This document shows, piece after piece, positions 18,410 to 44,539 of a DNA stretch of 64,000 nt. Where the stretch lies: contig MFPR01000019.1 in NCBI GenBank assembly GCA_001784175.1, forward strand, positions 7,994-71,993. Reading direction: 5' to 3'. The notes below the pieces were generated by a model that was not told the origin of the DNA, searched no databases, and was given only the letters and a program-made list of their open reading frames with translations. Source of the stretch: Candidatus Lindowbacteria bacterium RIFCSPLOWO2_12_FULL_62_27 (GTDB taxonomy: Bacteria > Lindowbacteria > 2-12-FULL-62-27). The translations under genes and the position numbers were made by a program. The number at the start of each line of letters is the position of its first letter. Within the stretch, counting starts at the first letter, position 1.

Positions 18410-18493
18410 AAGGCTCAATATTCAATGTTCAATGCTCAATTTTCAAGGTGGAAAACTTGAGAATTGAAAATTGAACATTGAATATTGAGCCTT
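18410..18493. repeat. 84-bp foldback: two 38-bp arms of ATTCAAT-type words
   Basis: Left arm 18410-18447 and right arm 18456-18493 are near-perfect reverse complements separated by an 8-base loop. Each arm is built of the word NTTCAAT repeated every 7-8 bases (ATTCAAT, GTTCAAT, GCTCAAT). It fills most of the 110-bp gap between two divergent genes, so any promoters for them lie in or beside it. It resembles in design, not in sequence, the foldbacks at 40696, 42606, 42746, 43919 and 44405. Confidence 0.9.
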
Positions 18494-18519
18494 GATCTGT
18501 AAGCATACCCTCGCAGGGG

Positions 18520-20406
18520 GTGAGTCGGATCGAGCAGAATATTCTCCGGTCATTGCGGATTGTCCGGCCGGGCGGGTCCTTCAAACTGGCCTACAAAATT
18601 CACGTCCTCGTCACCCTGGTGGTGATCGTGGTCGAGGCGGTCATCGTCTTTTTTGCGCTGGCCGAATACCGCACCAGCATGTACGAGCAGCTCCTCCGCC
18701 GGTCCTTCAACAACCTCCAGACGGTCGATGACCGGTTCCAGGCGCGGCTCTGGACCCGGACCGGCCGGCTGCGCGGCATGACCACCAAGAGCCTCACCGC
18801 GAAGACCCGGCTGCCGCAGGAACTCGTGTACCAGATCGAAAAGGTTTTCGACGCGGCCATCCAGACGGATCCCTCGATCACCTACTTCATCCTCTACACC
18901 CGCGCCGGCGCGCACGTCTATCCGGGCGCGCCGCGGTCGAAGGCGGCCTCCCTCCGGCAGGACGCCGCGGCCGTTCAGCACATCGAGCACGTCGGCGCGC
19001 GATACAACGAGCACAGCGGATACATCGAAGTCTACCGGACGCTCCTCGACAAGGAGCAGAACCCGTGGGCCCGGGTCGAAATGGGCGTCAACCCGTCGGT
19101 GGTCCGGGACGGGATCCTGAGGACGATCTGGAGCAGCGTCGTGATCGCGTGGGTGGCCGCCATCGCCGGACTCTACGCCGCCTTCCGGTTTTCCGACGTG
19201 ATCCTCGTGCCGATCCAGCGTCTCCGCAAGACCGCCGAGTCCCTGTCGGCCGGCGATCTCACCCAGCGCGCGACTGTCACCACCCGCGACGAGATCGCCG
19301 ACCTCTCGGCTTCATTCAATACGATGGCCGACCACCTGCAAAAACGGATCGAGGACCTCCGCGCCATCCAGATGCTCAGCACCGAAATCAGCGCCACCCT
19401 GACCCAGAACGACCTTCAGCGCGTCATCGCTCAGACATTCCACAAAATCGCCCATGCCGATTTCTGCGCCCTCCTCGCCCGCGCCGACCATTCCTCCGTC
19501 CTCACGGTGGCCGCGGGCATCGGCGTCGCCAATTCGGAGCTTCAGATGCAGACCGCCACGCCTGTCCTCGCGGAGGCCTGCGGACACAGCCGCGAGGTCC
19601 TGACGACCATCGCGGCCGCGCCGGACCTCGCGCGATTATTCCTGCCGGACGGACCCGCGCTGGCCGCGCCGCTCCCCGGAACCACGGTGGATCGCCCGCT
19701 CGTGCCGATCCCCCCTCCGCCGCCTTCCGCGCCGCTCATGGTCCTGCCCTTCATCTATGACGGCGAGGTTCGCTCGGTTCTCCTCCTGGGCGGCGAGAAG
19801 CTCAAGAAGGAGGACGAGGACATCAACTTTTTCCGGACCCTCTCCGGCCACGCGTCGGTGGCCCTGCAAAACGCGCGGCTCTATCAGCTCTCCATCACCG
19901 ACGGCCTCACCGGTCTTTATCTTCGCCGCCATTTCCTTTTCGAGCTTGAACGCCTTCTTACTCCGCCGGCCGACGGCGGCCGACTGGCGCTCCTCATGAC
20001 GGACATCGACCACTTCAAAAATGTCAATGACTCTTTCGGCCATCCCGAAGGCGATTTCATCCTGATCCACGTCGCCCGCACGATCTGGAAAACCCTCCGC
20101 ACCCATGACGTCACCGGCACCGGCCGCGCCTACGACATGGTCGGCCGTTACGGCGGCGAGGAATTCATCGCGCTCGTCCGCAACGTCACCCCGGAGGGCG
20201 CCCAGCGGTCGGCCGAACGCGTCCGGGCCGCGATCGAGGGCCAGGTTTTCAAGAGCGACAAGCGCGAGCACCGGATCACGACCAGCGTCGGCGTCTGCCC
20301 CTTCCAGCCGGGCCTCACCGTGCAGGACTGGATCGACCGCGCCGACCAGGCCCTCTATCAATCCAAATCCGGCGGCCGCAACCGCGTGACGGTGTACCAT
20401 GGCTAG
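18520..20406 (+). CDS. Membrane diguanylate cyclase (HAMP-GAF-like-GGDEF)
   Basis: 628 residues. Two membrane segments (about 25-46 and 203-223) flank a ~155-residue periplasmic sensor domain; then HAMP (224-276), a GAF-like domain (290-455) interrupted by a Pro-rich loop near 395-403, and GGDEF (456-628). The active-site motif is GGEEF (545-549), and an inhibitory I-site RAYD (536-539) lies exactly five residues before it, so the protein should make c-di-GMP from two GTP and be product-inhibited. The GTG start at 18520 follows a G-rich run immediately; the exact start is uncertain. The next gene overlaps by 8 bp. c-di-GMP control of surface adhesion would suit the exoprotein-rich neighbourhood, but no c-di-GMP receptor is seen. 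Confidence 0.9.
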   Translation: MSRIEQNILRSLRIVRPGGSFKLAYKIHVLVTLVVIVVEAVIVFFALAEYRTSMYEQLLRRSFNNLQTVDDRFQARLWTRTGRLRGMTTKSLTAKTRLPQELVYQIEKVFDAAIQTDPSITYFILYTRAGAHVYPGAPRSKAASLRQDAAAVQHIEHVGARYNEHSGYIEVYRTLLDKEQNPWARVEMGVNPSVVRDGILRTIWSSVVIAWVAAIAGLYAAFRFSDVILVPIQRLRKTAESLSAGDLTQRATVTTRDEIADLSASFNTMADHLQKRIEDLRAIQMLSTEISATLTQNDLQRVIAQTFHKIAHADFCALLARADHSSVLTVAAGIGVANSELQMQTATPVLAEACGHSREVLTTIAAAPDLARLFLPDGPALAAPLPGTTVDRPLVPIPPPPPSAPLMVLPFIYDGEVRSVLLLGGEKLKKEDEDINFFRTLSGHASVALQNARLYQLSITDGLTGLYLRRHFLFELERLLTPPADGGRLALLMTDIDHFKNVNDSFGHPEGDFILIHVARTIWKTLRTHDVTGTGRAYDMVGRYGGEEFIALVRNVTPEGAQRSAERVRAAIEGQVFKSDKREHRITTSVGVCPFQPGLTVQDWIDRADQALYQSKSGGRNRVTVYHG

Positions 20407-20992
20407 CAGAAAACTCCTCACCGCTGTCGCCGTCCTGCTGGTCATCACCGGCTGTGTCACCGATCCCTCGCACGACATGATCGAGGAATTCGTGTCCATG
20501 GAGCAGGCCCGGATCGCCGGCGAATCTATCGGCGAGGACCGCGCCTCCCGCAAAAAATGGCAGGACCGCACGGAGCGGATCAAGAAAATTGTCGGCAAGG
20601 ATTTCGTGACCTACATCCACGACATGCGCGGAACCCGGGGGCTGGCCATGGTCGAAAACGTCGAAGTCTACGTCGACGGCGCCGACATCGGCGAGAAGGT
20701 CAAGCTGCGGATCCGCAAATCCCCCAGCGGCGCCGGACTCGGCGACATCCTCGAGCGGCTGGGCAGCGCCCGCGTGGCCGCGCAGGGCGAGGAGGCGGAG
20801 GAAGGGCAGATTTACTCGCTCGAAATCATCGGCCGCACGCCGGCCGGCGATTATTACGGGCTGATCGATAAGACGAAAGCATACGTGCTCGGCGCGCGGA
20901 AAGTCGGCGAAAAGGTCCGCGCGAAAGTGATGGGGTTGGACACGCTGGACGGCAGGGAGGACGTGGTGTACCTGAAAATAATCGGATCCTGA
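20399..20992 (+). CDS. Lipoprotein with two TRAM-like beta-barrel segments
   Basis: 197 residues; its ATG overlaps the end of the cyclase gene by 8 bp. The signal peptide ends in a lipobox (VITGC), so the protein is lipidated at Cys. Two segments, about residues 80-105 (VENVEVYVDGADIGEKVKLRI) and 145-175 (GRTPAGDYYGLIDKTKAY...GEKVRAKV), resemble TRAM/OB-type small barrels, which in cytosolic proteins bind RNA. An exported TRAM-like protein is unusual; the resemblance is by eye. Function unknown; operon position suggests a link with the cyclase's periplasmic sensor. Confidence 0.65.
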   Translation: MASRKLLTAVAVLLVITGCVTDPSHDMIEEFVSMEQARIAGESIGEDRASRKKWQDRTERIKKIVGKDFVTYIHDMRGTRGLAMVENVEVYVDGADIGEKVKLRIRKSPSGAGLGDILERLGSARVAAQGEEAEEGQIYSLEIIGRTPAGDYYGLIDKTKAYVLGARKVGEKVRAKVMGLDTLDGREDVVYLKIIGS

Positions 20993-20994
20993 TT

Positions 20995-21396
20995 TTAGAC
21001 CGCCTGCCGCCCCGCAAACCCGGCGTCCAGATCGTGCCAGTGTCCGATTTCGCTTTCGCCCTCCTTCCAGCACAAATACACTTCCCGGCCGTCCCGCTGC
21101 GAATAAAAATCGACAAGGATCGGCGCCAGGCCCTTGACCTCGCATGAGTATTTCGTCTTGAGCCCGAGGATCATCCTCTGGATCTCCCGCTCCGACCGGC
21201 CCAGCGACTTGGCGAGCTGGTCGATGTACGTGGCCGAAATGTCGCCGCCGTTGAGCGCGATGGCGAGCATGATCTCCGACAGCGCCTTCTGCTTCTCCTG
21301 CCGCGCGTCCTCCGCCTTCCGGATCCTCGCCACGATCCCCCGGACCTCCGGCAATACGGCGTTGGCCTCATCGAGCGTGTAGTATTTCTTACTCAA
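20995..21396 (-). CDS. DUF2203 family protein
   Basis: 133 residues, the normal DUF2203 length. It begins MSKKYYTLDEANAVLPEV and ends with the family signature VDFYSQRDGREVYLCWKEGE...GHWHDLDAGFAGRQ. The start is TTG at 21396 with GAGGGG about 5 bases upstream. The biochemical role of DUF2203 is unknown. It overlaps the end of nfo by 8 bp, making it the last gene of a three-gene minus-strand operon, and converges with the lipoprotein gene across two bases. Confidence 0.88.
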   Translation of the reverse strand: MSKKYYTLDEANAVLPEVRGIVARIRKAEDARQEKQKALSEIMLAIALNGGDISATYIDQLAKSLGRSEREIQRMILGLKTKYSCEVKGLAPILVDFYSQRDGREVYLCWKEGESEIGHWHDLDAGFAGRQAV

Positions 21397-22258
21397 GGAG
21401 CCCCCTCAGCGTTCGCAAATTCATCACGTCCTCCTTCATGTCCGGCCCCTTCGGCGTTTCCAGCACCATGGGAAGGCCGCCGAACCGGCGGTCATTCAGA
21501 AGAAACCGGAACGCGTCGAGGCCGATTTCTCCCCGGCCGATGTGCTCATGCCGGTCTACCCGGCTTCCCAGGCCTCGCAATGAATCGTTCAGGTGAAAGG
21601 CCCGGACGGCCCGCAGGCCGACGGCCCGGTCGAGTTCGCTCATCGTCGCCTCGTATCCCCGCCGCGACCGGATCTCATATCCGGCCGCAAAAATATGGCA
21701 CGTATCAACGCACACGCCCAGCCGCCGCGCCCCCGCCGCACCGAGCTTGGAGCGCACGGCCCGGCGCAAGGATCGGAGATGCTCGAATTTCCAGCCGAGC
21801 GAATTCCCCTGGCCGGCGGTCGTCTCAAGCAAAATGCCGGCCCGAAATCCCGCTGTTTTCTTGAGCAGTCTCGTCAGAGATTCCGCCACCCGCCCAAGGC
21901 CCCACGCCTCGCCCCGGCCGCCGTGACTCCCCGGATGCAGAACAACCCACGCCAGCCCCAGCGTCTCCGCGCGGACCAGCTCGTCCTGCATCGACGCCAT
22001 CGATCGGCGATGAATGTCCCTGTCCGACCCGCAGAGGTTGATCAGGTATCCGGCGTGCGACACGAGATTGCGCCGCCCAAAGGCCCGCGCGCGATCCCGG
22101 AATCGCCTGACCTCCGCCGCCTCCAGCGGCGCCTCCCGCCAGCATTTGTTGTTCTTCGCAAATATCTGCGCCGCCTCGCACCGGATCCGCTCCGCCCGCT
22201 CCAGCCCCACGCTCACCCCTCCAGCCACCGACACATGCGCGCCCAAAAACGGCGTCAT
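21389..22258 (-). CDS. nfo: Endonuclease IV (AP endonuclease)
   Basis: 289 residues, close to E. coli Nfo. The metal ligands of the trinuclear zinc site are all in place: H68, H108 (in HPGSHGG), E145 (LETTAGQGNSLG), D185 and H188 (VDTCHIFAAGY), H222 (HLNDS), D235 and H237 (DRHEHIG) and E267 (LETPKG). The enzyme cleaves DNA 5' to abasic sites in base-excision repair. The ATG at 22258 overlaps the stop of the upstream methyltransferase (ATGA), so the two are coupled. The frame is open further upstream, but that is antisense-like noise over the methyltransferase gene. Confidence 0.96.
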   Translation of the reverse strand: MTPFLGAHVSVAGGVSVGLERAERIRCEAAQIFAKNNKCWREAPLEAAEVRRFRDRARAFGRRNLVSHAGYLINLCGSDRDIHRRSMASMQDELVRAETLGLAWVVLHPGSHGGRGEAWGLGRVAESLTRLLKKTAGFRAGILLETTAGQGNSLGWKFEHLRSLRRAVRSKLGAAGARRLGVCVDTCHIFAAGYEIRSRRGYEATMSELDRAVGLRAVRAFHLNDSLRGLGSRVDRHEHIGRGEIGLDAFRFLLNDRRFGGLPMVLETPKGPDMKEDVMNLRTLRGLLE

Positions 22259-22908
22259 TCCGCAATCTTCAGGCTGATCCCGACCCCGTCCCGCACCGGA
22301 ACGACCGACGTGACGTATCGCCGGTCGGCCAGGATCAGGTCCGTGTAGCGCTTCACCCCAAGCGTACTCGCCTCGGTGTTCTGCATGTCGATCACGCGCC
22401 CGTCCCACAGAAGATTGTCCACGATCACGAGCGCTCCAGCCCGCAGGCGGTCCTTGAACGACTGATACGCGCGCGGGTACTGCTCCTTGTCGATGTCCAT
22501 GAACAGAATGTCGGGCGAAGCGCCGCTCTTTTCGAATGATTCGATCGCGTCGCCTTCGTGGAACCGCACGCGATCCAGTATCTTCGCGCGCGAAAGGTAA
22601 GCCCGGGCCTTCTCCCGGTTCTCCCCGCTCCGGTCCGTGTGATGCACCTCGCCGCCCGGACCGACCGCCCGCGCGAACCACAGGGTCGAATAGCCGTAGC
22701 CGGACCCCAGTTCGAACACGACGCGCGCGCGCCTAAGAAGGGTCAGCACCTGGAGGAGCCGGCCCACCTGCGGACCGACAATCGGAAAATTTCGCTCGAT
22801 CCCGACGGCCTCCATCTCGAGGAGAACCTCGTCCTCTTTGGCCGCCGCAAGCTGCGTGAGATACGCGTCAATGTACGGATTGATGACCTCCAGCCGTCCC
22901 GTGTCCAT
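22255..22908 (-). CDS. SAM-dependent O-methyltransferase, caffeoyl-CoA OMT type
   Basis: 217 residues from ATG 22908 (a TTG at 22920 is an alternative). SAM-binding motif I is VFELGSGYGYST, followed by the acidic end of strand 2 (HHTDRSGEN), a metal/substrate acidic motif MDIDKEQYP and the VIVDNLLWDGRV stretch that marks the Methyltransf_3 family of Mg-dependent O-methyltransferases. Bacterial members methylate catechol-like small molecules; the substrate here is unknown. First gene of the OMT-nfo-DUF2203 operon. Confidence 0.9.
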   Translation of the reverse strand: MDTGRLEVINPYIDAYLTQLAAAKEDEVLLEMEAVGIERNFPIVGPQVGRLLQVLTLLRRARVVFELGSGYGYSTLWFARAVGPGGEVHHTDRSGENREKARAYLSRAKILDRVRFHEGDAIESFEKSGASPDILFMDIDKEQYPRAYQSFKDRLRAGALVIVDNLLWDGRVIDMQNTEASTLGVKRYTDLILADRRYVTSVVPVRDGVGISLKIAE

Positions 22909-22956
22909 CCCACCCAGCAAAAATCAAACCCCGCCCCTCCGTCAACCCCTGAACGG

Positions 22957-22982
22957 TTGAATTATTCTTGAAATCTTATAAA
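22957..22982 (+). promoter_or_regulatory. Possible promoter for the DUF1338 gene
   Basis: TTGAAT at 22957-22962 and TATAAA at 22977-22982, with only 14 bases between them, which is short for sigma-70. It lies in the AT-rich gap between divergent genes, about 20 bases before ATG 23002. Confidence 0.3.
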
Positions 22983-23001
22983 ATGACGTTCACTTGTGAA
23001 A

Positions 23002-23964
23002 ATGAAAACAACGAGCGCGGTGCTTCAGGCACCCCATCGGCCTATTCCGGTTCGTGATGAAAAGGAAAAACTGGCGTTGAACCTGTTCGACGCCCTCTGG
23101 GTCCGCTACCGGCGGCGCGTGGCGCATGTGCGCGCCTACGAGCAGGTCATCCGTCGGCACGGCGCGACGTTCGTGAACGACCACATCGCCTTTCGGACCC
23201 TCGCCCTCCAGAAACCGATGACCGGCATTTTCACCCTTTCCAGAATTTTCATGTCTCTGGGCTGGTCGCCGGCCGCCTGCCATGAATTCCCGGACAAGCA
23301 CATGAGTTCCATTCACCTTGAACACGCCAACACCCTCTTTCCGAAACTGTTCGTCACCGAACTCAAAACGTGGGAACTCCCGGACGCCGCGCGGAAAATC
23401 ATCCGGCAGGCGATCAAATCCCACGGGCCGCAATTCTCCGATAACGATCTCACGGACCTCCGGAACGCAAACCAAATCCGGCCCGCCCGGCGGCGGGCTC
23501 TGCTCAAGTCGCTCATCCGGTTCTTCACCGCGCTGCCATGGAAGATCCCGCGGCGCGAGTGGGTGGCGGCGATCGACCGGGAAACGCAGTTCGGCGCGTG
23601 GGTGCTTCTGAACGGCTATGAGGTCAACCACTTTACCGCCTCGGTCAATTCCCACGGTGTCGCGAGCCTCGATGACATCGACAAGACAGTTGCCGCCATG
23701 AAAAAAGCCGGCGTGCCGATGAAAAAGGAAATCGAGGGCGCGCCGGGCAGCGTCCTGCGGCAGACCTCGACGGAATCGGTCGTCCTGCCCTTTCGGGTGC
23801 GCGGAAAACGCGGGCCGGAAAAACTCGACTGGACCTGCGCCTATTTCGAAATCGCCGAGCGCGGCTATTGGGTGGACCCGCTGAGCGGCCTCCGGCGGCG
23901 GTTCGAGGGATTCCTGGGCGCACAGGCCACGCACCTGTTCGACATGACGAGGCTGCAAAAATAA
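23002..23964 (+). CDS. DUF1338 / 2-oxoadipate dioxygenase-decarboxylase (HglS) family protein
   Basis: 320 residues. It has the DUF1338 pattern NDHIAFRTL, VNHFTASVN, LRQTSTES and AYFEIAERG. The likely Fe(II) triad is H61, H210 and E283 (ATG numbering), matching by position the two His and one Glu of the HglS enzyme that turns 2-oxoadipate into 2-hydroxyglutarate in D-lysine breakdown. No other lysine-catabolic gene is nearby, so the substrate may differ. GTG 22996 is an alternative start; neither has a Shine-Dalgarno, so a short leader or leaderless message is possible. Confidence 0.82.
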   Translation: MKTTSAVLQAPHRPIPVRDEKEKLALNLFDALWVRYRRRVAHVRAYEQVIRRHGATFVNDHIAFRTLALQKPMTGIFTLSRIFMSLGWSPAACHEFPDKHMSSIHLEHANTLFPKLFVTELKTWELPDAARKIIRQAIKSHGPQFSDNDLTDLRNANQIRPARRRALLKSLIRFFTALPWKIPRREWVAAIDRETQFGAWVLLNGYEVNHFTASVNSHGVASLDDIDKTVAAMKKAGVPMKKEIEGAPGSVLRQTSTESVVLPFRVRGKRGPEKLDWTCAYFEIAERGYWVDPLSGLRRRFEGFLGAQATHLFDMTRLQK

Positions 23965-23985
23965 ATATATGGTATGCTGTGGCCG

Positions 23986-25317
23986 ATGAGTGTCCTGTGT
24001 CTGATCGTGGCGTTGCTCTGTCCCGTAACCGCGTGGGCCGCGCCGGCGTCTGAGATCGAGAAAGGTTTTCTGGCGGAGATCAAGGCCAATCCCGAAGACG
24101 GCGCCGCCTATTATGCCCTCGGCCTGATCCGCTTCAAGGAAAGCCGGCTCGCCGAGGCCAACTACTATTTCAAGTCCGCCGCGCGGCTCATGCCGGACGA
24201 CCCCAACTGCCGGGTGCGGCTCGGCATGACCCTTGAGCGCATGGGCCTGACAGAACGCGCGCGGGCCATGTTCGGCGAAGCCCTGAAGCTCGACCCGGAC
24301 CACGCGGAGGCCCGGGCGCATCTTGAGCCGCCCTCCGGAGGCGATGACCCGGGTCCCGCCATCCCAAAAGATACATCCCCCCCACCTATTATTTTTGAGA
24401 AATCACCGCCGCCTGCTCCTGCGAAACAGGCGCCCGTAGAGAAAAAGGATACATCTCCCCCCAAGATCGACGTAAACGAGGCCCGCGCCGGTTTCCGGGC
24501 CGAATCCCGCGACCGGATCCTGGCCGAAACTCGCCCCTTGGTCGCCGTCGTCGATACGATCCCGCGTCTTCGCCTGCCGCCTCCATCCCCGGACACGGCC
24601 GTGGCCCGGCGCGATACGCCGGCGCAGGCGCGCGAGACGCACGAGGCCCGCAAGGCGCCGGACTTGGCCAGGCTGCCGGCCCCGAAACTTCAGTGGCCGG
24701 TCTCTACCGCCGCCAAACCGGAAACGGCCCTCGTGCGTCCGCCGGCGCCGGCTCAGTCGTCGGCGCCTCCGCCACCACCGCCCCCGCCGCCCCCTCCTCC
24801 CGCGCCCGAAATCTCCGCGTCGCGCGAGGACCTGAGCCGCGTCCACGAGCTGATTCGCGTCACCGAACTGTCCATCCGCGGCATGGAGCGTCAAGCCGAG
24901 ACGATCCGGGACAAGGTGCGTGAAACGGAGAAAGGCATCGACGGCCTCGGCGCCCGGACGGACCAGAAGGAGAGCGAGATCAAAAAACAATACAAGGAAC
25001 AGATTCTCCGCCAGGAGGCCGAGCTCGAACGGCTCCGCCAGAGGCTCCGCGCCCTCGAAGAGCGCCAGTGGATGGAACCCCGCGTCACGTGGAACCCGCC
25101 GCCCCCGACGCCCTCCCTCGCCGGCTTGAACCTCAACACCGCCACGCTCAAGGAGCTCGAATCCCTCCCCGGCGTCGACCGCCGGCTGGCCGAGAACATC
25201 CTCTGGTATCGCGAGAACGTCGGGCCTTTCCTCGGACCCCGCGATATGCTATTTGTGCCGGGCATGACGGAAGACCGCTATCTGGATCTCATCAACCGCG
25301 GGGTGGACGTGCGTTGA
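23986..25317 (+). CDS. Exported TPR / poly-proline / coiled-coil protein with ComEA-like helix-hairpin-helix end
   Basis: 443 residues. Signal-peptide-like N-terminus (LCLIVALLCPVTAWAA), two TPR motifs (about residues 33-110), a long Pro/Ala-rich region including a run of 12 prolines (near 255-270), a coiled coil (about 280-355), and a C-terminal helix-hairpin-helix domain (last ~65 residues: NLNTATLKELESLPGVD...ILWYRENVGPF...MLFVPGMTEDRYLDLI). That domain is the DNA-binding unit of ComEA-type competence proteins. The combination suggests an envelope protein that reaches across the periplasm and may touch DNA, but this is inference. ATG 23974 is a possible start. It begins the signalling operon; the next start overlaps its stop (TTGA). 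Confidence 0.75.
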   Translation: MSVLCLIVALLCPVTAWAAPASEIEKGFLAEIKANPEDGAAYYALGLIRFKESRLAEANYYFKSAARLMPDDPNCRVRLGMTLERMGLTERARAMFGEALKLDPDHAEARAHLEPPSGGDDPGPAIPKDTSPPPIIFEKSPPPAPAKQAPVEKKDTSPPKIDVNEARAGFRAESRDRILAETRPLVAVVDTIPRLRLPPPSPDTAVARRDTPAQARETHEARKAPDLARLPAPKLQWPVSTAAKPETALVRPPAPAQSSAPPPPPPPPPPPPAPEISASREDLSRVHELIRVTELSIRGMERQAETIRDKVRETEKGIDGLGARTDQKESEIKKQYKEQILRQEAELERLRQRLRALEERQWMEPRVTWNPPPPTPSLAGLNLNTATLKELESLPGVDRRLAENILWYRENVGPFLGPRDMLFVPGMTEDRYLDLINRGVDVR

Positions 25318-25673: not shown

Positions 25674-25675
25674 TC

Positions 25676-27316: not shown

Positions 27317-27321
27317 GCGCG

Positions 27322-38168: not shown

Positions 38169-38209
38169 AAGCTCGCTAATGCCTTCACCACAACATTGAC
38201 GGAAGGATA

Positions 38210-38238: not shown

Positions 38239-38399
38239 GGGAAAGCTGGATTTGTTATGTCATAGTGACCCAAATCGGTTGACGGCCCGGGGGGCGGATA
38301 CTGTGAGTAACGGGATGGATTGGAGCGGTTGACTACGCTTTGGCTGTCACCGCAAGTCCTGATCTTGCTAAAATTGACTGGAGTTTTCTATATCACGTC
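38239..38399. other. Intergenic stretch, nothing recognised
   Basis: 161 bp between the exoprotein promoter and the 3' end of the chimeric gene. No open frame, hairpin with T-run or repeat family member was found. Confidence 0.5.
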
Positions 38400-39131
38400 C
38401 TACCCCTCGAAATGTTTCCCCAATTCCTCCCGCCCGGCCTTGGTGACGGCCCGGACAAGTTTCGGAACGGCCGTCTCCATCCACCGCCGGTGCGCGCGGG
38501 TGAGTCGGACTTTCCCCGCCGGTCCCTCTTCGGTTTCGAGACAGCGATTGATGTAAACCAGGAGGGCGTTGGCCTCCATGCTGGCGATGAGCCGGGCGAG
38601 CGCCTTGTCGAATTCGTCTGGGAATTGTTCGTGGAGCACGCATAGGTCGTACAGATCGGTGGGTTCAATGCGATCAACGACGCACTGGAGTTTCTCCGAT
38701 ACCATTTCCAGAGGGGAAGGACGTTGTATCCGTGCGACGCCATACAGTTCGTCCATCATGGCCTGTCGGGCAATTTTTTGCAGTCGGGTTTTCGAGGCAT
38801 TGACGAATTTCCGGCAAGCCTCGCGGGAAACGGTCGCCGGCAACAGCGCCGGCAGGCGTGTCGAAATGGTTTTGGCGCGGTCCGCGGCCGACATGCGGCC
38901 GGGGCGTTCTCTCCAGAGAATGGCGCCGGCAAGACGCCGGTCGAGCGGCGGCCGGCCGGGCCGGTACTGTTTCCTGATTTCCACGAATTGCGCAACGGAC
39001 TCCCGAGGAATGAGCCATGTCCGCCCTTTGAGCGCGGCGCCCTGAATTCTCCCTTGCCTGCAATATTTGGCGACGAGTTCCTCTGAAACGCCAATGACCT
39101 TGGCGGCGTCCGGGCCGGTCAGGATATCCAT
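38400..39131 (-). CDS. Chimera: HTH + antitoxin module fused to toxin C-terminal domain, catalytic core missing
   Basis: 243 residues. Residues 1-55 are an excisionase/MerR-type helix-turn-helix (LTGPDAAKVIGVSEELVAKYC...GRTWLIPRESV). Residues 70-131 (ILWRERPGRMSAADRAKTI...MDELYG) match the C-terminal module of the antitoxin at 30269-30601. Residues 139-199 (SPLEMVSEKLQCVVDRIEPTD, DLCVLHE) match residues 128-188 of the nucleotidyltransferase at 29611-30276, with about 22 identities in the first 36. The GGGT and DID active site is absent. This looks like a deletion that joined an antitoxin to the tail of its toxin. The frame is intact, so it may act as a regulator or stand-alone antitoxin. The strong promoter puts the ATG at the transcription start. 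Confidence 0.85.
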   Translation of the reverse strand: MDILTGPDAAKVIGVSEELVAKYCRQGRIQGAALKGRTWLIPRESVAQFVEIRKQYRPGRPPLDRRLAGAILWRERPGRMSAADRAKTISTRLPALLPATVSREACRKFVNASKTRLQKIARQAMMDELYGVARIQRPSPLEMVSEKLQCVVDRIEPTDLYDLCVLHEQFPDEFDKALARLIASMEANALLVYINRCLETEEGPAGKVRLTRAHRRWMETAVPKLVRAVTKAGREELGKHFEG

Positions 39132-39138
39132 GTTCTAT

Positions 39139-39166
39139 ATTATACGTTTTTCCGAATAGTTTTCAA
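39139..39166 (-). promoter_or_regulatory. Strong promoter of the chimeric gene (leaderless)
   Basis: On the minus strand TTGAAA (39166-39161), 16 bases, TATAAT (39144-39139), and the ATG at 39131, so the predicted start of transcription falls on or next to the start codon. Confidence 0.8.
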
Positions 39167-39180
39167 GTAAAAAGCGCGTG

Positions 39181-39624
39181 CTATACGTACCAGTCTTCGG
39201 TCCGAAGACCCGGAAACAGGTTGAAGTGTTTGGTGTTGTGGGTGACCAGGGTGGCGTGGTGGACGAGGGCCGTGGCTGCGATGAAAGTGTCGACGTCGCC
39301 GACGGGAAGTCCCCGGCCGGCGTCAGAGACGCCGGCACTTGGGGCGCCGGAGGCGCTGACCCGGCCGGCGAGGCCGGCTTTGAGTTCTCCGAACCGGCGG
39401 CAGACTTCGCGGTCGATCGGAAGGAGGATGATATTCTCCGCGAGTTCCTCGACCCGCGTCAGGTTGGCCTGCTTCTTCTGGGATCGGCAGGCGCCGTAAT
39501 AGAGTTCACCCAGCGTGGGAGATGCAACCGCCAGATGCTGGAGGCCGGCCTCGCCGGCCTTTTGGACGACGGGCTTGACGCCGTTGAGAAAGTAGATGAC
39601 CGTGTCGGTGTCGAGGACGATCAT
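39181..39624 (-). CDS. vapC: VapC-type PIN-domain ribonuclease toxin with a 16-residue insert
   Basis: 147 residues: LDTDTVIYFLNG (first acidic motif), SPTLGELYYGA (Glu motif), PVGDVDTFIAATAL (third motif) and VTHNTKHF. The active-site acids are present. Just before PVGD the sequence carries 16 extra residues (VSASGAPSAGVSDAGR) encoded by a 48-nt palindromic insert flanked by 9-bp direct repeats; the fragment at 30665-30807 lacks them. The start overlaps the vapB stop by 4 bp. VapC toxins cleave RNA such as initiator tRNA or rRNA. Whether the insert harms activity is unknown. Confidence 0.93.
   Translation of the reverse strand: MIVLDTDTVIYFLNGVKPVVQKAGEAGLQHLAVASPTLGELYYGACRSQKKQANLTRVEELAENIILLPIDREVCRRFGELKAGLAGRVSASGAPSAGVSDAGRGLPVGDVDTFIAATALVHHATLVTHNTKHFNLFPGLRTEDWYV
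39313..39369 (-). repeat. In-frame palindromic insert in vapC with 9-bp direct repeats
   Basis: Direct repeats CCGGCCGGC at 39313-39321 and 39361-39369 flank a palindrome from GTCAG (39322) to CTGAC (39360). Unit length is 48 nt. It contains CCGGCACTTGGG; the related element in the PIN gene at 40107 has CCGGCACTGGG. As both are written on the plus strand, the two share the order GTCAG then CCGGCACT. Confidence 0.8.
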
Positions 39625-39875
39625 GCAAGTTCCGCTCTCCCTTCACCGGAGGTTCGTCTCGCATACACGTCCTCGACGATCTCTTCCGGCGACCGCTCAT
39701 CCATCCATGACCCGGCCAGGGCCTTAAGCCGGCCCGCCCGGTCCGACCGTGGCCCCTGCCGGAGCGCTTCGGACAAGAGTTCCGACACAACCTCCGACCG
39801 GCTCCGTTTCTCCCGCCGGGCCCGCCGGTCGACCCGCCTAATCAGCGACTCATCGAGATAAATCGATACCTGCAT
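39621..39875 (-). CDS. vapB: VapB-type ribbon-helix-helix antitoxin
   Basis: 84 residues: an N-terminal ribbon-helix-helix (QVSIYLDESLIRRVDRRARREKRSRSEVVSELLSEAL) that binds operator DNA, then a flexible tail (SPEEIVEDVYARR) that would block VapC. The ATG at 39875 has a GAGGGAGAGG ribosome-binding site. Overlaps vapC by 4 bp (ATGA). Confidence 0.92.
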   Translation of the reverse strand: MQVSIYLDESLIRRVDRRARREKRSRSEVVSELLSEALRQGPRSDRAGRLKALAGSWMDERSPEEIVEDVYARRTSGEGRAELA

Positions 39876-39905
39876 CGCGCCTCTCCCTCACGTGGTATGG
39901 ATATA

Positions 39906-39942
39906 ACATATTATATTATGTGTATTTTATTCGAAAAGTCAA
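39906..39942 (-). promoter_or_regulatory. vapBC promoter and near-palindromic operator
   Basis: On the minus strand TTGACT (39942-39937), 18 bases, TAATAT (39918-39913). The sequence ACATA-N6-TATGT (39906-39921) overlaps the -10 box and is a fair operator for the ribbon-helix-helix VapB. Confidence 0.6.
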
Positions 39943-39968
39943 GGACCGGGTGGACCCTTCCGTGACGG

Positions 39969-40430
39969 TCAGGGGGCGGGAGATACGATGGAGAGATCCT
40001 TGAAATAGGCGCGATAGAATCCGAGGTCGCGGGTGAGGAATTGGTCGGCGCAGGTTTGGGCGTGGGACGCGACCAGAAAATCGGGGAGGATGCGGGTTCG
40101 CGATCCGCCGCCGGCCATGGACGGCCCAGTGCCGGTCCTGACACGGATGTCAGAGGACCGGCCGCCGGCGCGGTACTGTTTCCACATGAGCCCCGCGAGG
40201 AGGCACGCATGGCCGGGTGTGGATGCAAGCGAGATTCCGGTGTCGGACATGAATTTCTGAGTCGTCGCCTCCTCTCCGATTTGCGCCGCAAGCTCCGCAA
40301 GAACGACTTCGCACACCACCAGTTGCCCCTGTTGGAGCGCCGCATAGAGCGCGGCGCTGGACGCGGCGCGCCATTGGGGATCGGGGAGAAGGACGTCGAG
40401 CAGGATGTTGGTGTCGACGGCGGTGATCAT
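39969..40430 (-). CDS. PIN-domain ribonuclease toxin with an 18-residue insert
   Basis: 153 residues: TAVDTNILLDVLLPD (acidic motif), VVCEVVLAELAAQIG (Glu motif), ILPDFLVASHA (third motif) and TRDLGFYRAYF (fourth). Eighteen extra residues (RSSDIRVRTGTGPSMAGG) sit before GSRTRILPDF, encoded by a 54-nt insert between direct repeats GCCGCCGGC (plus strand). This is the same structural position as the insert in vapC. It forms a pair with the AbrB-type gene upstream, overlapping by 4 bp. Confidence 0.9.
   Translation of the reverse strand: MITAVDTNILLDVLLPDPQWRAASSAALYAALQQGQLVVCEVVLAELAAQIGEEATTQKFMSDTGISLASTPGHACLLAGLMWKQYRAGGRSSDIRVRTGTGPSMAGGGSRTRILPDFLVASHAQTCADQFLTRDLGFYRAYFKDLSIVSPAP
40107..40169 (-). 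repeat. In-frame palindromic insert in the second PIN gene
   Basis: Direct repeats GCCGCCGGC at 40107-40115 and 40161-40169, 54 nt apart. The interior folds as CCGGTCCTGACA / TGTCAGAGGACCGG. Related to the vapC insert by GTCAG and CCGGCACT blocks, read here on the opposite strand. Confidence 0.75.
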
Positions 40431-40645
40431 GAAGGATGCCCGCGCATCTTTTTGACCAGCCGGTCGCTCGACTGGGGCCGCTTGAGGGCGCCGGCCCAGC
40501 CCTCGAAGGGGTTTGGGCCGATCTTCTTGGTAATGACGATCCTGCCGCCGTCGATCGCAAACTCGACTTCGGAATTCTCCTCGATCCCCGTCTTTCGCCG
40601 GATCTCCCTGGGAATCGTCACCTGCCCGCGCCGCGTGACTTTCAT
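40427..40645 (-). CDS. AbrB/SpoVT-type antitoxin
   Basis: 72 residues beginning MKVTRRGQVTIPREIRRKTGI, the classic swapped-hairpin AbrB fold, followed by GRIVITKK and a tail (GWAGALKRPQSSDRLVKKMRG) likely to bind the PIN toxin. ATG 40645 has AAAGGAG eight bases upstream. The frame is open further upstream into a foldback repeat, but that is not expected to be coding. Confidence 0.92.
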   Translation of the reverse strand: MKVTRRGQVTIPREIRRKTGIEENSEVEFAIDGGRIVITKKIGPNPFEGWAGALKRPQSSDRLVKKMRGHPS

Positions 40646-40695
40646 GCTCACAGCTCCTTTTGTCAGCCCCAGGTAAAGCGCGACGAAAACATCTG

Positions 40696-40796
40696 CCACG
40701 AACGAACACGAACTTGGAACACGAACGAACACGAACATTTTCACATGGGATTAATGTTCTTTCGTGTCCGTTCGTGATCGTTCGTGACGTTCGTGG
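40696..40796. repeat. Foldback repeat with CACGAACGAA-type words
   Basis: The left arm begins CCACGAACGAACACGAAC and the right arm ends GTTCGTGG; arms of about 45 bp are imperfect reverse complements. Each arm repeats CACGAAC every 8-11 bases. Same design as 44405-44539, which uses CACGAATG. Confidence 0.85.
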
Positions 40797-41572
40797 TCAT
40801 GGGGTTGCGATGTTTCCCCTTCTATCTACCAATATCCTATTTCCTATTCCTACTTCTTGTAATATTATTCCGCATCTGGGCGATCCGGTCAAGCCTACTA
40901 CCAGTAAATATATATACTAAAAGCTCTAAAATATGATGAACCCGGATTTCCCGTTTTGAAACTACGCGCGGATCGCGTCGTAACTTCCATGTTAGTCAAT
41001 AAGCTATAATCGTTTCTCTGCATATCATGGGAAGCCACGCTTCTCCTTCTTGCAAAATGGCCCATCCATAAATGACCCATCCGCTGTGTGGTTAACTTTC
41101 TACAAATTAATAGCTTATAAATAACCTCTTCGCGGCGGAGTCTCTGGGTCGGATTTTGCACTGCTGTATGTATATGTATATTCCTATGGTAATTCGACCC
41201 ATCTGTTTCAAGGCTTCTTCGGGGTTCTATCCCGGCCATCCGGTCCCGGATGCCCGGGGCCGGACCGTTGTCACCAGTTACCGATTCCCGATCACCGACT
41301 TCCAGAAATCCTGATCATGATATCAAGGGCGCTCACACTTGTTGTCTATCCCGTATATATATTTCCAAAAGCAGTTCAAATCCCCTCGATCCCGCCGGTC
41401 AGCCGCTAATCCCATGTCCCTCCGCCGAATCCCCCCAGGTATCCTCACGGCGGTCTTATATACATACAAGTTATTGCGACGCGGTTGGGGTAACTTAACA
41501 ACTTGCGGTCTGGCCCAGAAAGTCCATAACTCAATACCCGGCACCATCGCCGCTCTGGGGAAGAGGATCGCG
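40797..41572. other. AT-rich gene-free stretch with isolated word-like repeats
   Basis: About 780 bp with lower GC than its surroundings and no supported gene. It contains single-arm word runs, for example TATCCTATTTCCTATTCC (40842-40859) and ACCGATTCCCGATCACCGA (41280-41298), and the string TATATACATACAAG near 41458 that also occurs at 38227. No tRNA or clear terminator was found. Confidence 0.5.
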
Positions 41573-41625
41573 GATTCGATTGTGATTTTTGAGGCGCCCG
41601 CGGTCCGTTGTGGGGCTGGGAACGG

Positions 41626-41922
41626 TTATCTAAATTTGAGGAACAGGCCAAGCACGACGGCGGCCTGGCCGAGCCAGAAGAGGAACATCCATTTAATGAT
41701 TTCGGCGCGGAGTTTGCCGAGTTCGTCATGCATTTCAACGCGGAGTTTGCCGAGTTCTTCCGCGAGGCGGCGTTCGAATCGTTCGGCGGCGAGTTCAATC
41801 ACGTCCCTTTTGTTCTCATTGAGCGCGCCATTGACGACGCCATTGACGAATTCCACCAGCCGGTCGGCGCCGTCCTCGCCCAATTTCTCGCGCAGCGCTT
41901 TAGGCACCGTCACCACCGGCAT
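41626..41922 (-). CDS. Small coiled-coil protein with C-terminal membrane anchor (a1)
   Basis: 98 residues. It begins MPVVTVPKALREKLGEDGADRLVEFVN, followed by a coiled coil (FERRLAEELGKLRVEMHDELGKLRAEI) and a single membrane helix (WMFLFWLGQAAVVLGLFL). This is the pattern of DUF1640/LA_3696-like small proteins, whose function is unknown. ATG 41922 has a perfect GAAGGAGGT six bases upstream. Paralogue of the gene at 43093-43455. Confidence 0.85.
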   Translation of the reverse strand: MPVVTVPKALREKLGEDGADRLVEFVNGVVNGALNENKRDVIELAAERFERRLAEELGKLRVEMHDELGKLRAEIIKWMFLFWLGQAAVVLGLFLKFR

Positions 41923-41993
41923 GGCAAACCTCCTTCAGCTTTCATCCTTGTCAGTATACCTGCGCCTGCAGAGGGAAGTCAAATGAGCCGGGT

Positions 41994-42170
41994 ATTTCGG
42001 ATTTTAAATCCAAAATCCAAAATCCAAAATCCAAAATCCCAACTCCCAGCCCCGGCCCGCCGCCCGAATCTGTCCCGGTTCCTGGTTTCCGGATTCGCGA
42101 TCCCCTCCCTCGCTCTCCTCGCGCCGGCGCCGGCGATGGGGAAGAGGATGGCGGATTCTAGTGTGATTTT
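41994..42170 (+). repeat. Signal-peptide-like fragment with AAATCC tract (copy 2)
   Basis: A tract of AAATCCA repeated about every 7 bases (41994-42039) is followed by a segment encoding NLSRFLVSGF, LALLAPAPAMG and ADSSVIF on the plus strand. This is nearly the signal peptide and first mature residues of the 44567-61078 protein. It ends directly before the 3' end of gene b1. CTAG at 42158-42161 is the empty counterpart of the element insertion at 43919. Confidence 0.8.
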
Positions 42171-42180
42171 CGGCGAAGGG

Positions 42181-42522
42181 TTATTTTCGGCCGTTGAGGA
42201 TGGCGGTGTACAACTGGTCGATGCGGGCGTTCAGATCGGCGAATTTCTGGTCGATGGCGGCGAATTTCTGGTCAATCGCGGAAAACCGCTGGTCCATTTT
42301 CTGGTCCAAGGCTTCAAACCGGCGGTTGATTTCGGACTGGAGGGTGTCAAACCTGGTTTCCACATGCTCGACGCGCCGCCGAAGTTCAGTAACCTCATGT
42401 CTGAGTTCCGACACGTCCTGTCTGAGGTCCGACAAACCTTCTTTCAACGTTTCCGTCCGTTTGTCGATCACGTCATACAGCATTTCATTGGTGATCCGTT
42501 TGACGATGTCCTGAGCTTTCAT
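42181..42522 (-). CDS. Small coiled-coil protein (b1)
   Basis: 113 residues from ATG 42522 (AGGA eight bases upstream; TTG 42558 and ATG 42531 are alternatives). MKAQDIVKRITNEMLYDVIDKRTE is followed by almost continuous heptads (LRQDVSELRHEVTELRRRVEHVE..., then DQKFAAIDQKFA repeats) and the tail RIDQLYTAILNGRK. No membrane segment. Family unknown. Paralogue b2 at 44058-44324 has fewer heptads. Confidence 0.75.
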   Translation of the reverse strand: MKAQDIVKRITNEMLYDVIDKRTETLKEGLSDLRQDVSELRHEVTELRRRVEHVETRFDTLQSEINRRFEALDQKMDQRFSAIDQKFAAIDQKFADLNARIDQLYTAILNGRK

Positions 42523-42605
42523 CGCCCTCATCCTACCAACCGCATCGAGGGCAGTCAAGATTTCCGTGCCCGTGAACGTGCCCGAACCCGGGATCGGGTA
42601 TTATG

Positions 42606-42671
42606 GCCACAAAAGGCGCAAAAGTCACAAGAAAACTCACAAAATTATGTGCATTTTGTGCTTTTTGTGGC
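42606..42671. repeat. Foldback repeat with CACAAAAG-type words
   Basis: GCCACAAAAGG at 42606 pairs with CTTTTTGTGGC ending at 42671; arms repeat CACAA every 8-9 bases. Related in sequence to the core of the element at 43919-44034. Confidence 0.8.
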
Positions 42672-42745
42672 TGGATCATCAACGACCGTTTTGCAGAAGG
42701 CTCCGCAGTCATGACCTGCCGGCAGATCGAGAAAAAGAATCTTGA

Positions 42746-42827
42746 ACTACGAAAGGACGCGAAAGGACGCGAAAGGGGCAAATTCCACCATGAAATTTTT
42801 CGCGAACTTTTGCGTTCCATTCGTAGT
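42746..42827. repeat. Foldback repeat with GAAAGGACGC-type words
   Basis: ACTACGAAAGGACGCGAAAG at 42746 pairs with the end of TTGCGTTCCATTCGTAGT at 42827. The left arm repeats CGAAAGGACG every 10 bases. Confidence 0.8.
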
Positions 42828-42854
42828 AAATGGAATTATCGAGTTTGGCAACTT

Positions 42855-43061
42855 TTGAAATCCGAAATCCGAATCTCGAAATCCGAAACAAATCAGAATG
42901 TTCCAAATCCAAAATCCAAAATCCAAAATCCCAACCGCCGTCCCGCCGCCCGATCCTGTCCCGGTTCCTGGTTTCCGGATTCTCGATTCTCTCCCTTGCG
43001 CTCCTTTCGCCGGCGCCGGCGCTGGGGAAGATGATGGCGGATTCGACTGTGATTTTTGAGG
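42855..43061 (+). repeat. Signal-peptide-like fragment with AAATCC tracts (copy 3)
   Basis: AAATCCGA and AAATCCA word tracts (42857-42942) lead into a segment encoding RPILSRFLVSGF, LALLSPAPALGKMMADSTVIFE, the closest copy to the real N-terminus at 44567. It runs into the 3' end of gene a2. Confidence 0.8.
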
Positions 43062-43092
43062 AGCCTGCGATCAGTTGCGGGGCTGGGAAGGG

Positions 43093-43455
43093 TTATCTAA
43101 ATTTCAGGAACAGGCCAAGCACGACGGCGGCCTGGCCGAGCCAGAAGAGGAACATCCATTTAATGATCTCGGCGCGGAGTTTGCCGAGTTCGTCGTGCAT
43201 TTCGGCGCGGAGTTTGCCGATCTCCGAATGGAGGGCGCCGAAGAATTCGGCGCGGAGTTTGCCGAGTTCGTCGTGCATTTCGACGCGGAGTTTGCCGATC
43301 TCTTCGGAAAGTCTGCGGGCGAATTTGTCATCGACCAACGAAACGATTTCAGATCGCAGGGCGCCGTTGGTGCGGGCAACAAACTCCACCAGCCCCTCAA
43401 CGCCGTCATCGCCCATTTTTTCCCTGAGCACGCGCGGAACCGTCATGACGGTCAT
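43093..43455 (-). CDS. Small coiled-coil protein with membrane anchor (a2)
   Basis: 120 residues, same plan as a1 (MTVMTVPRVLREKMGDDGVEGLVEF..., coiled coil, WMFLFWLGQAAVVLGLFL). The coiled coil is longer because the segment EIGKLR-EMHDELGKLRAE occurs twice (about 26 residues, visible as a ~78-bp tandem repeat at 43180-43300). ATG 43455 overlaps the stop of the gene upstream by 4 bp. Confidence 0.85.
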   Translation of the reverse strand: MTVMTVPRVLREKMGDDGVEGLVEFVARTNGALRSEIVSLVDDKFARRLSEEIGKLRVEMHDELGKLRAEFFGALHSEIGKLRAEMHDELGKLRAEIIKWMFLFWLGQAAVVLGLFLKFR

Positions 43456-43664
43456 GCCCGTCCGTTCTCCTTCTTCACCTGCGCGAAATACTCCGCCAGA
43501 CCTTTGGCCGCCTCGTCCCCGAGTTTATCGAGAAGCAGGTGCGGCATGACCCGGAGGTTCGCGTCCGTGTCCGGCGTGGCGGCATTGAAGAAATCGACCA
43601 GCGCGTCCGCTCCATCCTCGCCCAGTTTCTTCCGCAGCACCTTCGGCACCGTTACAATCGTCAT
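43452..43664 (-). CDS. Small protein related to the N-terminus of a1/a2
   Basis: 70 residues. It starts TIVTVPKVLRKKLGEDGADALVDFFN, clearly the same N-terminal unit as a1 and a2, and has a second similar unit (MPHLLLDKLGDEAAKGLAEYF) instead of a coiled coil and membrane helix. Overlaps a2 by 4 bp, so the two probably form an operon. Function unknown. No strong ribosome-binding site. Confidence 0.7.
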   Translation of the reverse strand: MTIVTVPKVLRKKLGEDGADALVDFFNAATPDTDANLRVMPHLLLDKLGDEAAKGLAEYFAQVKKENGRA

Positions 43665-43745
43665 GTCTGAAGTCTACCGATGGCGCCGTCCGAAGTCAAC
43701 CGTTCCCGGAGGCCAACCATGACCCGCCGTGCGCCATTGACTTGG

Positions 43746-43914
43746 ATATTTCGGATTGTGGATCGGGGACTGCGGATTTTAAATCCAAAATCCAAAATCC
43801 AAAATCCAAAATCCCAAACGCCGTCCCGCCGCCCGAATCTGTTCCGGTTTCTCGTTTCAGGATTCGCGATTCTCTCCCTCGCTCTGCTCGCGCCGGCGCT
43901 GGGGATGGCGGATT
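43746..43914 (+). repeat. Signal-peptide-like fragment with AAATCC tract (copy 4, interrupted)
   Basis: The AAATCC tract (43781-43816) is followed by a segment encoding NLFRFLVSGFAILSLALLAP and MADS. The copy is cut at CTAG (43915) by the 116-bp element and resumes at 44039 (TGTGATTTTCGG). Confidence 0.8.
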
Positions 43915-43918
43915 CTAG

Positions 43919-44034
43919 AAGCTATCTCAAAAATCATTACTGGCCACAAGAAGCACAAGAGTCACAAGATGCTCAAGGGAAACTCGGAATTTTTGTGCCT
44001 CCTGTGCCTCTTGCGGCTAATTTTGAGACAGGTT
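43919..44034. mobile_element. 116-bp MITE-like foldback element with CTAG target duplication
   Basis: The ends AAGCTATCTCAAAA and, read inward from the other side, AACCTGTCTCAAAA match at 12 of 14 positions. CTAG flanks both sides (43915-43918 and 44035-44038). The interior arms pair (CCACAAGAAGCACAAGAG with CTCCTGTGCCTCTTGCGG). The sister copy of the surrounding sequence at 42151-42180 has a single CTAG and no element, showing an empty site. Too short to code for a transposase, so it would be moved in trans. Confidence 0.85.
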
Positions 44035-44057
44035 CTAGTGTGATTTTCGGCGAAGGG

Positions 44058-44324
44058 TTATTTTCGGCCGTTGAGGATGGCGGTATAGAGCTGATCGATG
44101 CGTCGGTTGAGGTCGGCGAATTTCCGGTCCATGGCCTCGAACCGGCGGTTGATGTCCGACTGCAGGTTGTCGAATCGCAATTTCAGATGTTCCATTCTCC
44201 GGCGCGGTTCTCCCACGTCCTGTTTGAAGTCCGACAACCCTTCTTTCAACGAGTCCATCCGTTTGTCGATCAAATCATACAGCATTTCCTTGGTGATCCG
44301 TTTGACGATGTCCTGAGCTTTCAT
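44058..44324 (-). CDS. Small coiled-coil protein (b2)
   Basis: 88 residues from ATG 44324 (same context as b1). MKAQDIVKRITKEMLYDLIDKR, a shorter coiled coil (SDINRRFEAMDRKFADLNRR) and the same tail IDQLYTAILNGRK as b1. Its 3' end abuts the resumed signal-peptide fragment. Family unknown. Confidence 0.75.
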   Translation of the reverse strand: MKAQDIVKRITKEMLYDLIDKRMDSLKEGLSDFKQDVGEPRRRMEHLKLRFDNLQSDINRRFEAMDRKFADLNRRIDQLYTAILNGRK

Positions 44325-44404
44325 CGCCCTCATCCTACCCACCGCGTCGACGGCAGTCAAGAAAGCGCGGAGAGCTTACGTAAGGGGTCGGTGGAAGGGG
44401 GCAT

Positions 44405-44539
44405 GAAACAATTTCACACGAATGAACACGAATGTCCGAGCACGAATGAGCACGAATTTTTTTATGGTTTAAACTTCGAAAATCTCTTATTCGTGGGCGT
44501 TCGTGTTCCATATTCGTGTCCATTCGTGTCAAATGTTTC
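44405..44539. repeat. 135-bp foldback repeat upstream of the giant gene, CACGAATG-type words
   Basis: The outer ends pair (GAAACAATTTCACACGAATG with the reverse of CATTCGTGTCAAATGTTTC), and the arms carry CACGAATG words every 9-10 bases. Its right end is 28 bases before ATG 44567, so it forms most of the leader or promoter region of the 5503-residue protein. A GTG at 44516 lies inside it and is rejected as the start. Confidence 0.85.

Follow-up and report, generated by a model that had tools for sequence, protein, structure and literature searches.

What are the six short palindromes, with arms that are themselves runs of one repeated word, located in a 64,000-nucleotide stretch (hereafter, the window) of contig MFPR01000019.1 of Candidatus Lindowbacteria bacterium RIFCSPLOWO2_12_FULL_62_27 (positions 7,994 to 71,993), and how might they have arisen? 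On balance, it appears likely that those with a word of the CAC type are gene-less members of a widespread class of foldbacks, whose full form is a GxxExxY nuclease gene embedded between two word arrays, the nuclease recognizing its own words. The association of the gene with the arms, the match between the two arms, the co-variation of word and protein subfamily, the intermediates retaining a gene remnant, the dispersal of the elements, the uniformity of words within each of them, and one insertion (E5) are observed; any binding, cutting, or moving of the words by the nuclease is an inference from the sequences.

The palindromes (E1 to E6, Table 1) are well distinguished from chance. The imperfect inverted-repeat scoring assigned 26 to E1, 20.5 to E2, 16 to E4, 20 to E5, and 25 to E6, the best hairpins of three Markov-shuffled windows scoring at most 15.5; E3 is outside the scored list and folds as a clean 18-bp stem. 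The arm periods reported by Tandem Repeats Finder (TRF) are 7 and 10. The earlier note on this DNA had correctly described six palindromes with repetitive arms, together with their words and periods. It erred, for most of them, in calling their sequences unrelated: E2, E3, E5, and E6 share one word type, CACRARN, with a period of 9-10 (CACGAAC, CACAAAAG, CACAAG, and CACGAAT, respectively), and the E4 word, ACGCGAAAGG, is close to it. The single runs that the note placed near 40842 and 41280 find no support, TRF not reporting them at score 40.

The same genome (4.39 Mb, whose overall counts come from pattern searches and sampled stretches) harbors dispersed families of such elements outside the window, as the search suggested by the earlier note disclosed; their lack in the rest of the genome, which the note named as a refutation of its idea, was not observed. 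Twelve palindromes scoring at least 18 were found in 472 kb of sampled sequence, versus none under a third-order Markov null. The pattern CACGAANGNNCACGAA has 62 matches versus 1 for the reversed control, corresponding to about 25-30 CACGAAN places that include the families CACGAACG (E2 type), CACGAATG (E6 type), and CACGAAGG; CACAARRNNNCACAARR, a pattern with a different word spacing, has no matches. The E1 heptamer pattern, YTCAATNYTCAATNYTCAAT, has 23 matches versus 0 for the control, at six genome places, four of which are palindromic. Once aligned, the E2-type and E6-type copies have a common outer flank (GGTAAACAGRGGAAACATT) and the same word spacing (10-13-10), and they differ in the seventh letter of nearly all their words, which is C in 7/8 words of E2 and T in 7/8 words of E6. 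In 20 elements of this genome, the commonest seventh letter is present in 90% of an element's words versus 56% after shuffling (maximum 64%), indicating that the words of one element change together.

The linked protein gene, whose existence the earlier note had proposed to check, belongs to the GxxExxY family (PF13366), which was searched for because a Trichlorobacter word run (L070) adjoins a GxxExxY open reading frame (ORF). A profile search detected PF13366 in 23/26 word-bearing genomes versus 3/14 control genomes. The family was detected in 47/192 diverse genomes; the CAC-word triple is present in 27/191 other genomes, and 22 of these 27 have PF13366, versus 22 of the 164 without the triple (p = 2e-12). 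The genome under study has three PF13366 genes (126-136 bits versus a cut-off of 22), and no GxxExxY ORF was found within the window. In most of the loci whose flanks were read, the gene is flanked by two word arrays in inverted orientation; as an example, one gene of this genome (L227) is preceded by GTCTCACGCAAAGGCGCGAAGGTGCAAAGGCGCAAAG and followed by CTTTGTGTCTTTGCGCCTTTGCGTGAGAC. In 33 loci, mostly from word-bearing genomes, the median inverted score between the two flanks is 22, versus 9.5 for flanks of different loci. When genomes were picked regardless of words, 21/30 GxxExxY loci scored at least 15 and 16/30 at least 20, while the ParE toxin genes of word-bearing genomes, used as controls, gave 0/30 at both thresholds, with a best score of 12.5. 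Within single genomes, a score of 15 is reached by 63% of matched flanks and 3.5% of mismatched ones (p = 1e-9). The arms are close to the gene ends, and their words are varied (CACAGAGG, CACGAAGG, CACAAAGG, GCAAAGGC, GCAGATTA, ACAGGAT, and CGGAATAA); internal periodicity is significant in 34/50 arms, the best period is 8-10 in 46/50, and 43/50 5' arms are purine-rich on the sense strand. Seven relatives of the query were found in plasmids, two in viral contigs (both with word arms), and none in phage records. One chromosome carries about six complete GxxExxY genes, together with fragments, within 42 kb (G168:C1:786000-828000).

The word class follows the nuclease subfamily. Protein identity and arm-word similarity between groups are correlated (Mantel rho 0.20, 0/2000 permutations as high, p = 0.0005; 49 loci from 34 genome groups), and nearest protein neighbors belonging to different groups have a six-mer sharing of 0.19 versus 0.055 for all pairs. 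The GCAAAGGC arms, for instance, are found both in the window genome and in Cloacimonadota, with proteins that are related to each other. The foldback class spans a dozen bacterial phyla or more: among the matches listed for CACGAAGGRNCACGAAGGRNCACGAAG are Acidobacteriota, Planctomycetota, Chloroflexota, Nitrospirota, Desulfobacterota, Lentisphaerae, Kiritimatiellaeota, Cloacimonadota, Bacteroidota, Armatimonadota, Gemmatimonadota, Aminicenantes, Proteobacteria, and Streptomyces. Many of these places are one-armed, 101/126 of the matches listed having no partner CTTCGTG in the 130 bp that follow. Since the word class follows the nuclease subfamily across phyla, two ideas put forward in the earlier note, mobile hairpins and binding arrays for a protein, both gain support; its third one, templated copying, finds a counterpart in the uniformity of the words that make up an element, which fits copying between arms.

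The same observations bear on a different explanation, according to which the arms are passive, slippage and template switching near hairpins generate the arrays, and GxxExxY is a passenger that inserts into hairpins or survives best inside them. One-armed arrays are indeed numerous, the genomes G010 and G147 contain words and no such gene, and heptamer and octamer palindromes exhibit the same design without GxxExxY. On the other hand, passive arms do not predict that nuclease subfamily and word class go together across phyla, nor that matched arms surround 70% of unselected GxxExxY genes and no ParE gene, and this explanation is considered unlikely. The octamer in question, GATATCAT, represents another word class without a known partner, whose palindromes in the window genome are located at L217 18818-18871, L225 16280-16329, and L226 13410-13517.

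The link between gene-bearing and gene-less forms can be followed in several genomes. G002, a genome belonging to the family of the window organism, has one GxxExxY gene enclosed by arms of CACAAAAG (the E3 word), which are nested in turn in CACGAATG arms (the E6 word); hence, the words of E3 and E6 enclose a GxxExxY gene, while E2, E4, and E5 are assigned to the class from their word type alone. E2, E3, E5, and E6 are probably gene-less members of the GxxExxY-linked class, and E4 may be one as well. In the window genome, a CACGAAGG palindrome is found 58 bp from a GxxExxY gene, with another CACGAAGG array at 0.9 kb, and the encoded protein is of the type carrying CACGAAG words elsewhere. The Terriglobia chromosome OX638355 contains about 14 dispersed palindromes with the E3 word, the loop of which retains only the last ~44 codons (3' end) of the gene. 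L295 contains a gene-bearing element in tandem with a gene-less foldback, and their left ends are identical at 63/64 positions. In L346 and L446, the gene is flanked by two direct copies of the whole palindrome, recombination between which would leave a solo palindrome. Long direct repeats (score of at least 20) flank 23/87 GxxExxY genes versus 0.15% of mismatched pairs, and the fact that some of them take in the end of the neighboring gene points to recombination-based copying. A GxxExxY gene is bordered by direct duplications, which include the 3' terminus of the gene located upstream, at L295 1357-2027 (64 bp) and at L289 1369-2113 (77-79 bp); the downstream copy of the latter carries a foreign-looking tyrS-like 3' end. 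At L344 536-1299, a degenerate second 3' arm and the start of the neighboring SDR gene lie upstream of the GxxExxY gene, representing a decayed tandem duplication.

E5 is an inserted element. One of the four copies of a duplicated region of the window is empty around 42151-42173, where it reads GCGGATTCTAGTGTGATTTTCGG; at the homologous position, 43908-44050, the sequence is GCGGATT-CTAG-(AAGCTATCTCAAAAAT ... CACAAG foldback ... ATTTTGAGACAGGTT)-CTAG-TGTGATTTTCGG. E5 is, therefore, a precise insertion with a clean empty site, a 4-bp duplication (or a 6-bp one, TTCTAG), and terminal inverted repeats (TIRs), and the target-duplication check proposed in the earlier note has a positive outcome. 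No clean duplication and no empty site were found for E1, E2, E3, E4, and E6; outer arms are present in the families A (that of E2) and C.

The features displayed by E5 (TIRs, short target duplication, and empty site) are those by which miniature inverted-repeat transposable elements (MITEs), i.e., non-autonomous derivatives of DDE transposons, are recognized, and the foldbacks also resemble MITEs in being small, dispersed, and palindromic. They might be conventional MITEs mobilized by DDE transposases, with the words as mere internal sequence, an idea with which the common TIR-like end of the Terriglobia copies (GAGCCTTTTGCAAAATT) and the outer arms of families A and C agree. Nevertheless, word arrays and GxxExxY recur independently of the TIR type, while the outer ends vary among families and genomes, and no transposase gene was observed between arms in the place of GxxExxY. 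Furthermore, a search for the E5 TIRs retrieved one further pair (L200, C33:99029-99178), which lacks the word core; TIR and word core are, thus, separable, and E5 can be regarded as a MITE-like carrier of a word foldback. As a general account of the foldbacks, ordinary MITEs seem quite unlikely.

The GxxExxY protein corresponds to TIGR04256/PF13366, five proteins scoring 112-138 bits versus a cut-off of 35. Residues E43, D82, E92, K94, and Y110 are invariant and Q106 nearly so, giving the arrangement E ... D ... ExK followed by QxxxYL. A sequence search of solved structures returned a marginal match only. An AlphaFold model was built from five sequences (predicted local distance difference test, pLDDT, 75), and its structural matches are PD-(D/E)XK nucleases (3ijm, Z 7.9; BglII, 7.7; the Cas4-type SSO0001, 7.2; Hjc, 5.8); RecE and lambda exonuclease are among its Foldseek matches. 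On the basis of the modeled core fold and the catalytic D...ExK, the product is placed in the PD-(D/E)XK nuclease superfamily, with a predicted nuclease activity. When the literature was searched by family names, neither a function of GxxExxY nor a description of its arms was found in the available portions of the papers naming the family. Literature queries with the words themselves, or with the spurious peptides into which they translate, retrieved no description either.

The usual substrate of PD-(D/E)XK enzymes is DNA, and this is one of the points that make it improbable that the arms act in RNA, bracketing the GxxExxY message, with the gene-less copies serving as regulatory hairpins (stability, autoregulation). 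The conserved polarity of the arms, purine-rich on the sense strand at the 5' side, and their position near the gene ends would be in keeping with such a role; conversely, the gene-less copies are dispersed, embedded in MITEs, or one-armed, and an Rfam search of the window gave no match.

The weakest explanation, which is very improbable, regards the foldbacks as REP-like (repetitive extragenic palindrome) elements mobilized by Y1 (RAYT/TIRYT) transposases, a doubled word being found in the TIRs of the latter as well: all the eight Y1_Tnp genes of the window genome have TIRs, mostly made up of a tag plus a word repeated twice, yet the words (TTGACTTT, AAGTTATT, and CTACTTT) are not those of the window, and CAC-type palindromes are absent within 1.5 kb of all eight, so that a RAYT linkage was rejected. 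Nor do the foldbacks resemble the 20-40 bp stem-loops tagged with GTAG/CGTC of REPtrons, the elements being 66-135 bp long and devoid of a constant tag in the copies read. The TIRs of the Y1_Tnp genes (L031-L038) have a tag that is often GGGGTCAG-like and a word present twice with a period of 7-9 (e.g., TTGACTTTTTGACTTT and AAGTTATTGAAGTTATT), a design that parallels the GxxExxY arms.

REPs and bacterial interspersed mosaic elements (BIMEs) with their RAYTs (REPtrons), and the TIRYTs of TIRtrons, for which TIRs around Y1 transposases have been described (PMC3733652), nonetheless represent a related arrangement: a small enzyme gene is flanked by extragenic repeats that are also dispersed without the gene in many phyla. 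The difference is that the enzyme is a Y1 HUH transposase in those systems and a member of the PD-(D/E)XK family in this one, where the arms are word arrays and no GTAG/CGTC tag was noticed. Homing-endonuclease genes are similar in that a small nuclease gene is predicted to recognize its own surroundings and in that the spread would be due to repair-driven copying. They differ in having a unique long site instead of a degenerate word array, in that gene-less copies are abundant here, and in that cleavage is here predicted only. No family defined in this way was found in the literature, in agreement with the earlier note, the nearest being the inverted heptamer pairs of PMC4692102 and the TIRs of PMC3733652.

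If the foldbacks are indeed gene-less relatives of a GxxExxY element, the following scenario can be envisaged. The full form would comprise the PD-(D/E)XK gene and two inverted, sometimes direct, arrays of an 8-11 bp word. The nuclease might recognize its own array, either as double-stranded DNA or as an extruded hairpin, and nick or cut it. Repair by template switching between arms, break-induced copying, or recombination between arrays would then spread the arrays, keep the words of one element alike, and duplicate the flanks; loss of the gene would leave solo palindromes, as occurs with solo long terminal repeats. Template switching between inverted-repeat arms, with arm homogenization, is described in general terms in the available part of PMC8604942. 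Ordinary MITEs mobilized by transposases may also carry gene-less palindromes, as in the case of E5 and the Terriglobia remnants.

The presence of arms and the association of word choice with nuclease type suggest an overlooked mobile or homing element. A broader proposal, which is advanced only tentatively and to which we would give somewhat less than even credit, is that GxxExxY nucleases constitute an undescribed, near pan-bacterial self-spreading class, in which each subfamily reads its own word and nuclease-triggered repair copies the arrays, makes foldbacks, and keeps the words identical. Were this true, it would be a third route, besides DDE and HUH transposases, for filling bacterial genomes with small palindromes, and, if the nuclease drives the spread, the class would be categorically new. 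The link with GxxExxY would provide a testable role both for the family and for the intergenic word repeats of many genomes, for which no explanation was found, namely recognition of an 8-11 bp word array by a nuclease. The recognition might be decoded word by word from the natural co-variation of protein subfamily and repeat, and these elements offer a case for studying the means by which evolution preserves the identity of palindrome arms and of repeated words.

Several observations weigh against assigning the foldbacks to a nuclease that recognizes its own words. Shared descent or the transfer of whole elements, rather than recognition, could explain part of the correlation between word and subfamily. 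The fold match reaches the superfamily level only (best Z 7.9, model pLDDT 75). About 30% of unselected GxxExxY loci are without clear arms at score 15; in G010 and G147, which are rich in word arrays (8-11 CAC-word triples), PF13366 was not detected, making them candidates for a different partner or for gene loss; and heptamer palindromes have the same design without the gene. In G048, which has one GxxExxY gene and 127 pattern matches, the places read are one-armed and carry the upstream unit of the gene itself, so that folding back is not obligatory. Since E5 and the Terriglobia copies lie within MITE-type TIRs, a DDE transposase may have moved them. The target duplications of nuclease-bearing elements are only suggestive: in the high-copy genome G041, there is one 8-10 bp match (L369), two of 7/8, and none in the other cases. 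No base-level empty site was found for a gene-bearing element, the best case being that of Bacteroides finegoldii (L361), between radA and an FAD gene. Lastly, three genera share one element in the same position, between flanks of about 76% identity, implying that movement is infrequent at that locus; the movement of these elements is probably episodic.

The heptamer classes may be a separate matter. The words of E1 and of the AAATCCA tracts occur in the flanks of 0/85 GxxExxY loci. The AAATCCA tracts, which the earlier note had attached to the same system as the palindromes, are real heptamer runs; they are not three independent cases, since they occupy the same place in three of the four copies of one duplicated upstream region. 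Comparable intergenic arrays of short words are the heptamers of Xanthomonas (GGGAATC, with about 70-75 convergent inverted pairs per genome) and Nostoc (GGGGA(C/T)T), as well as the heptanucleotide repeats of Calothrix; in contrast to the present elements, those of Xanthomonas and Nostoc have one word per genome group and have been studied as G-quadruplexes, no linked gene being reported in the available part of the source (PMC4692102).

Table 1. Position of the foldbacks and of the associated features within the window.
Feature	Position	Strand	Description
E1	18410..18493	.	Heptamer foldback, TTCAATG words, gene-less; PMT_2 gene on one side, HAMP-GGDEF gene on the other
E2	40696..40796	.	CACGAACG word foldback (CACGAAC), family A; about ten more genome copies, some partial
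AAATCCA tract	42006..42046	+	Heptamer tract, not a GxxExxY-type arm
E5 empty site	42158..42161	+	Paralogous copy (GCGGATTCTAGTGTGATTTTCGG)
E3	42606..42671	.	CACAAAAG word foldback
E4	42746..42827	.	ACGCGAAAGG word foldback
AAATCCA/GAAATCC tract	42857..42931	+	Heptamer tract, same place in second duplicated copy
AAATCCA tract	43781..43818	+	Heptamer tract, third duplicated copy
E5 left target duplication	43915..43918	+	CTAG (TTCTAG if 6 bp)
E5	43919..44034	.	CACAAG word foldback within TIRs AAGCTATCTCAAAAAT / AACCTGTCTCAAAAT; inserted element
E5 right target duplication	44035..44038	+	CTAG
E6	44405..44539	.	CACGAATG word foldback (CACGAAT), family B

E6 is larger than first drawn, an outer layer carrying the element to roughly 44378-44561. 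The AAATCCA tracts and E3-E6 belong to a repeat-rich nest (41626-44360), adjoining a MazE-type antitoxin gene, in which the four copies of the duplicated region contain small coiled-coil genes of two types, each present twice. The window also harbors two giant ORFs of 4530 and 5520 amino acids (18-13610 and 44516-61078, respectively) with tandem repeats of ~100-135 amino acids, the latter having fn3 and immunoglobulin-like domains in its first 1000 amino acids. A different class of dispersed palindromes, CCTCTCCC...GGGAGAGG with the flanks TGAGGTGAGGG, is represented at 61095-61196 of the window and at L208 8121, L215 3692, and L216 15089.

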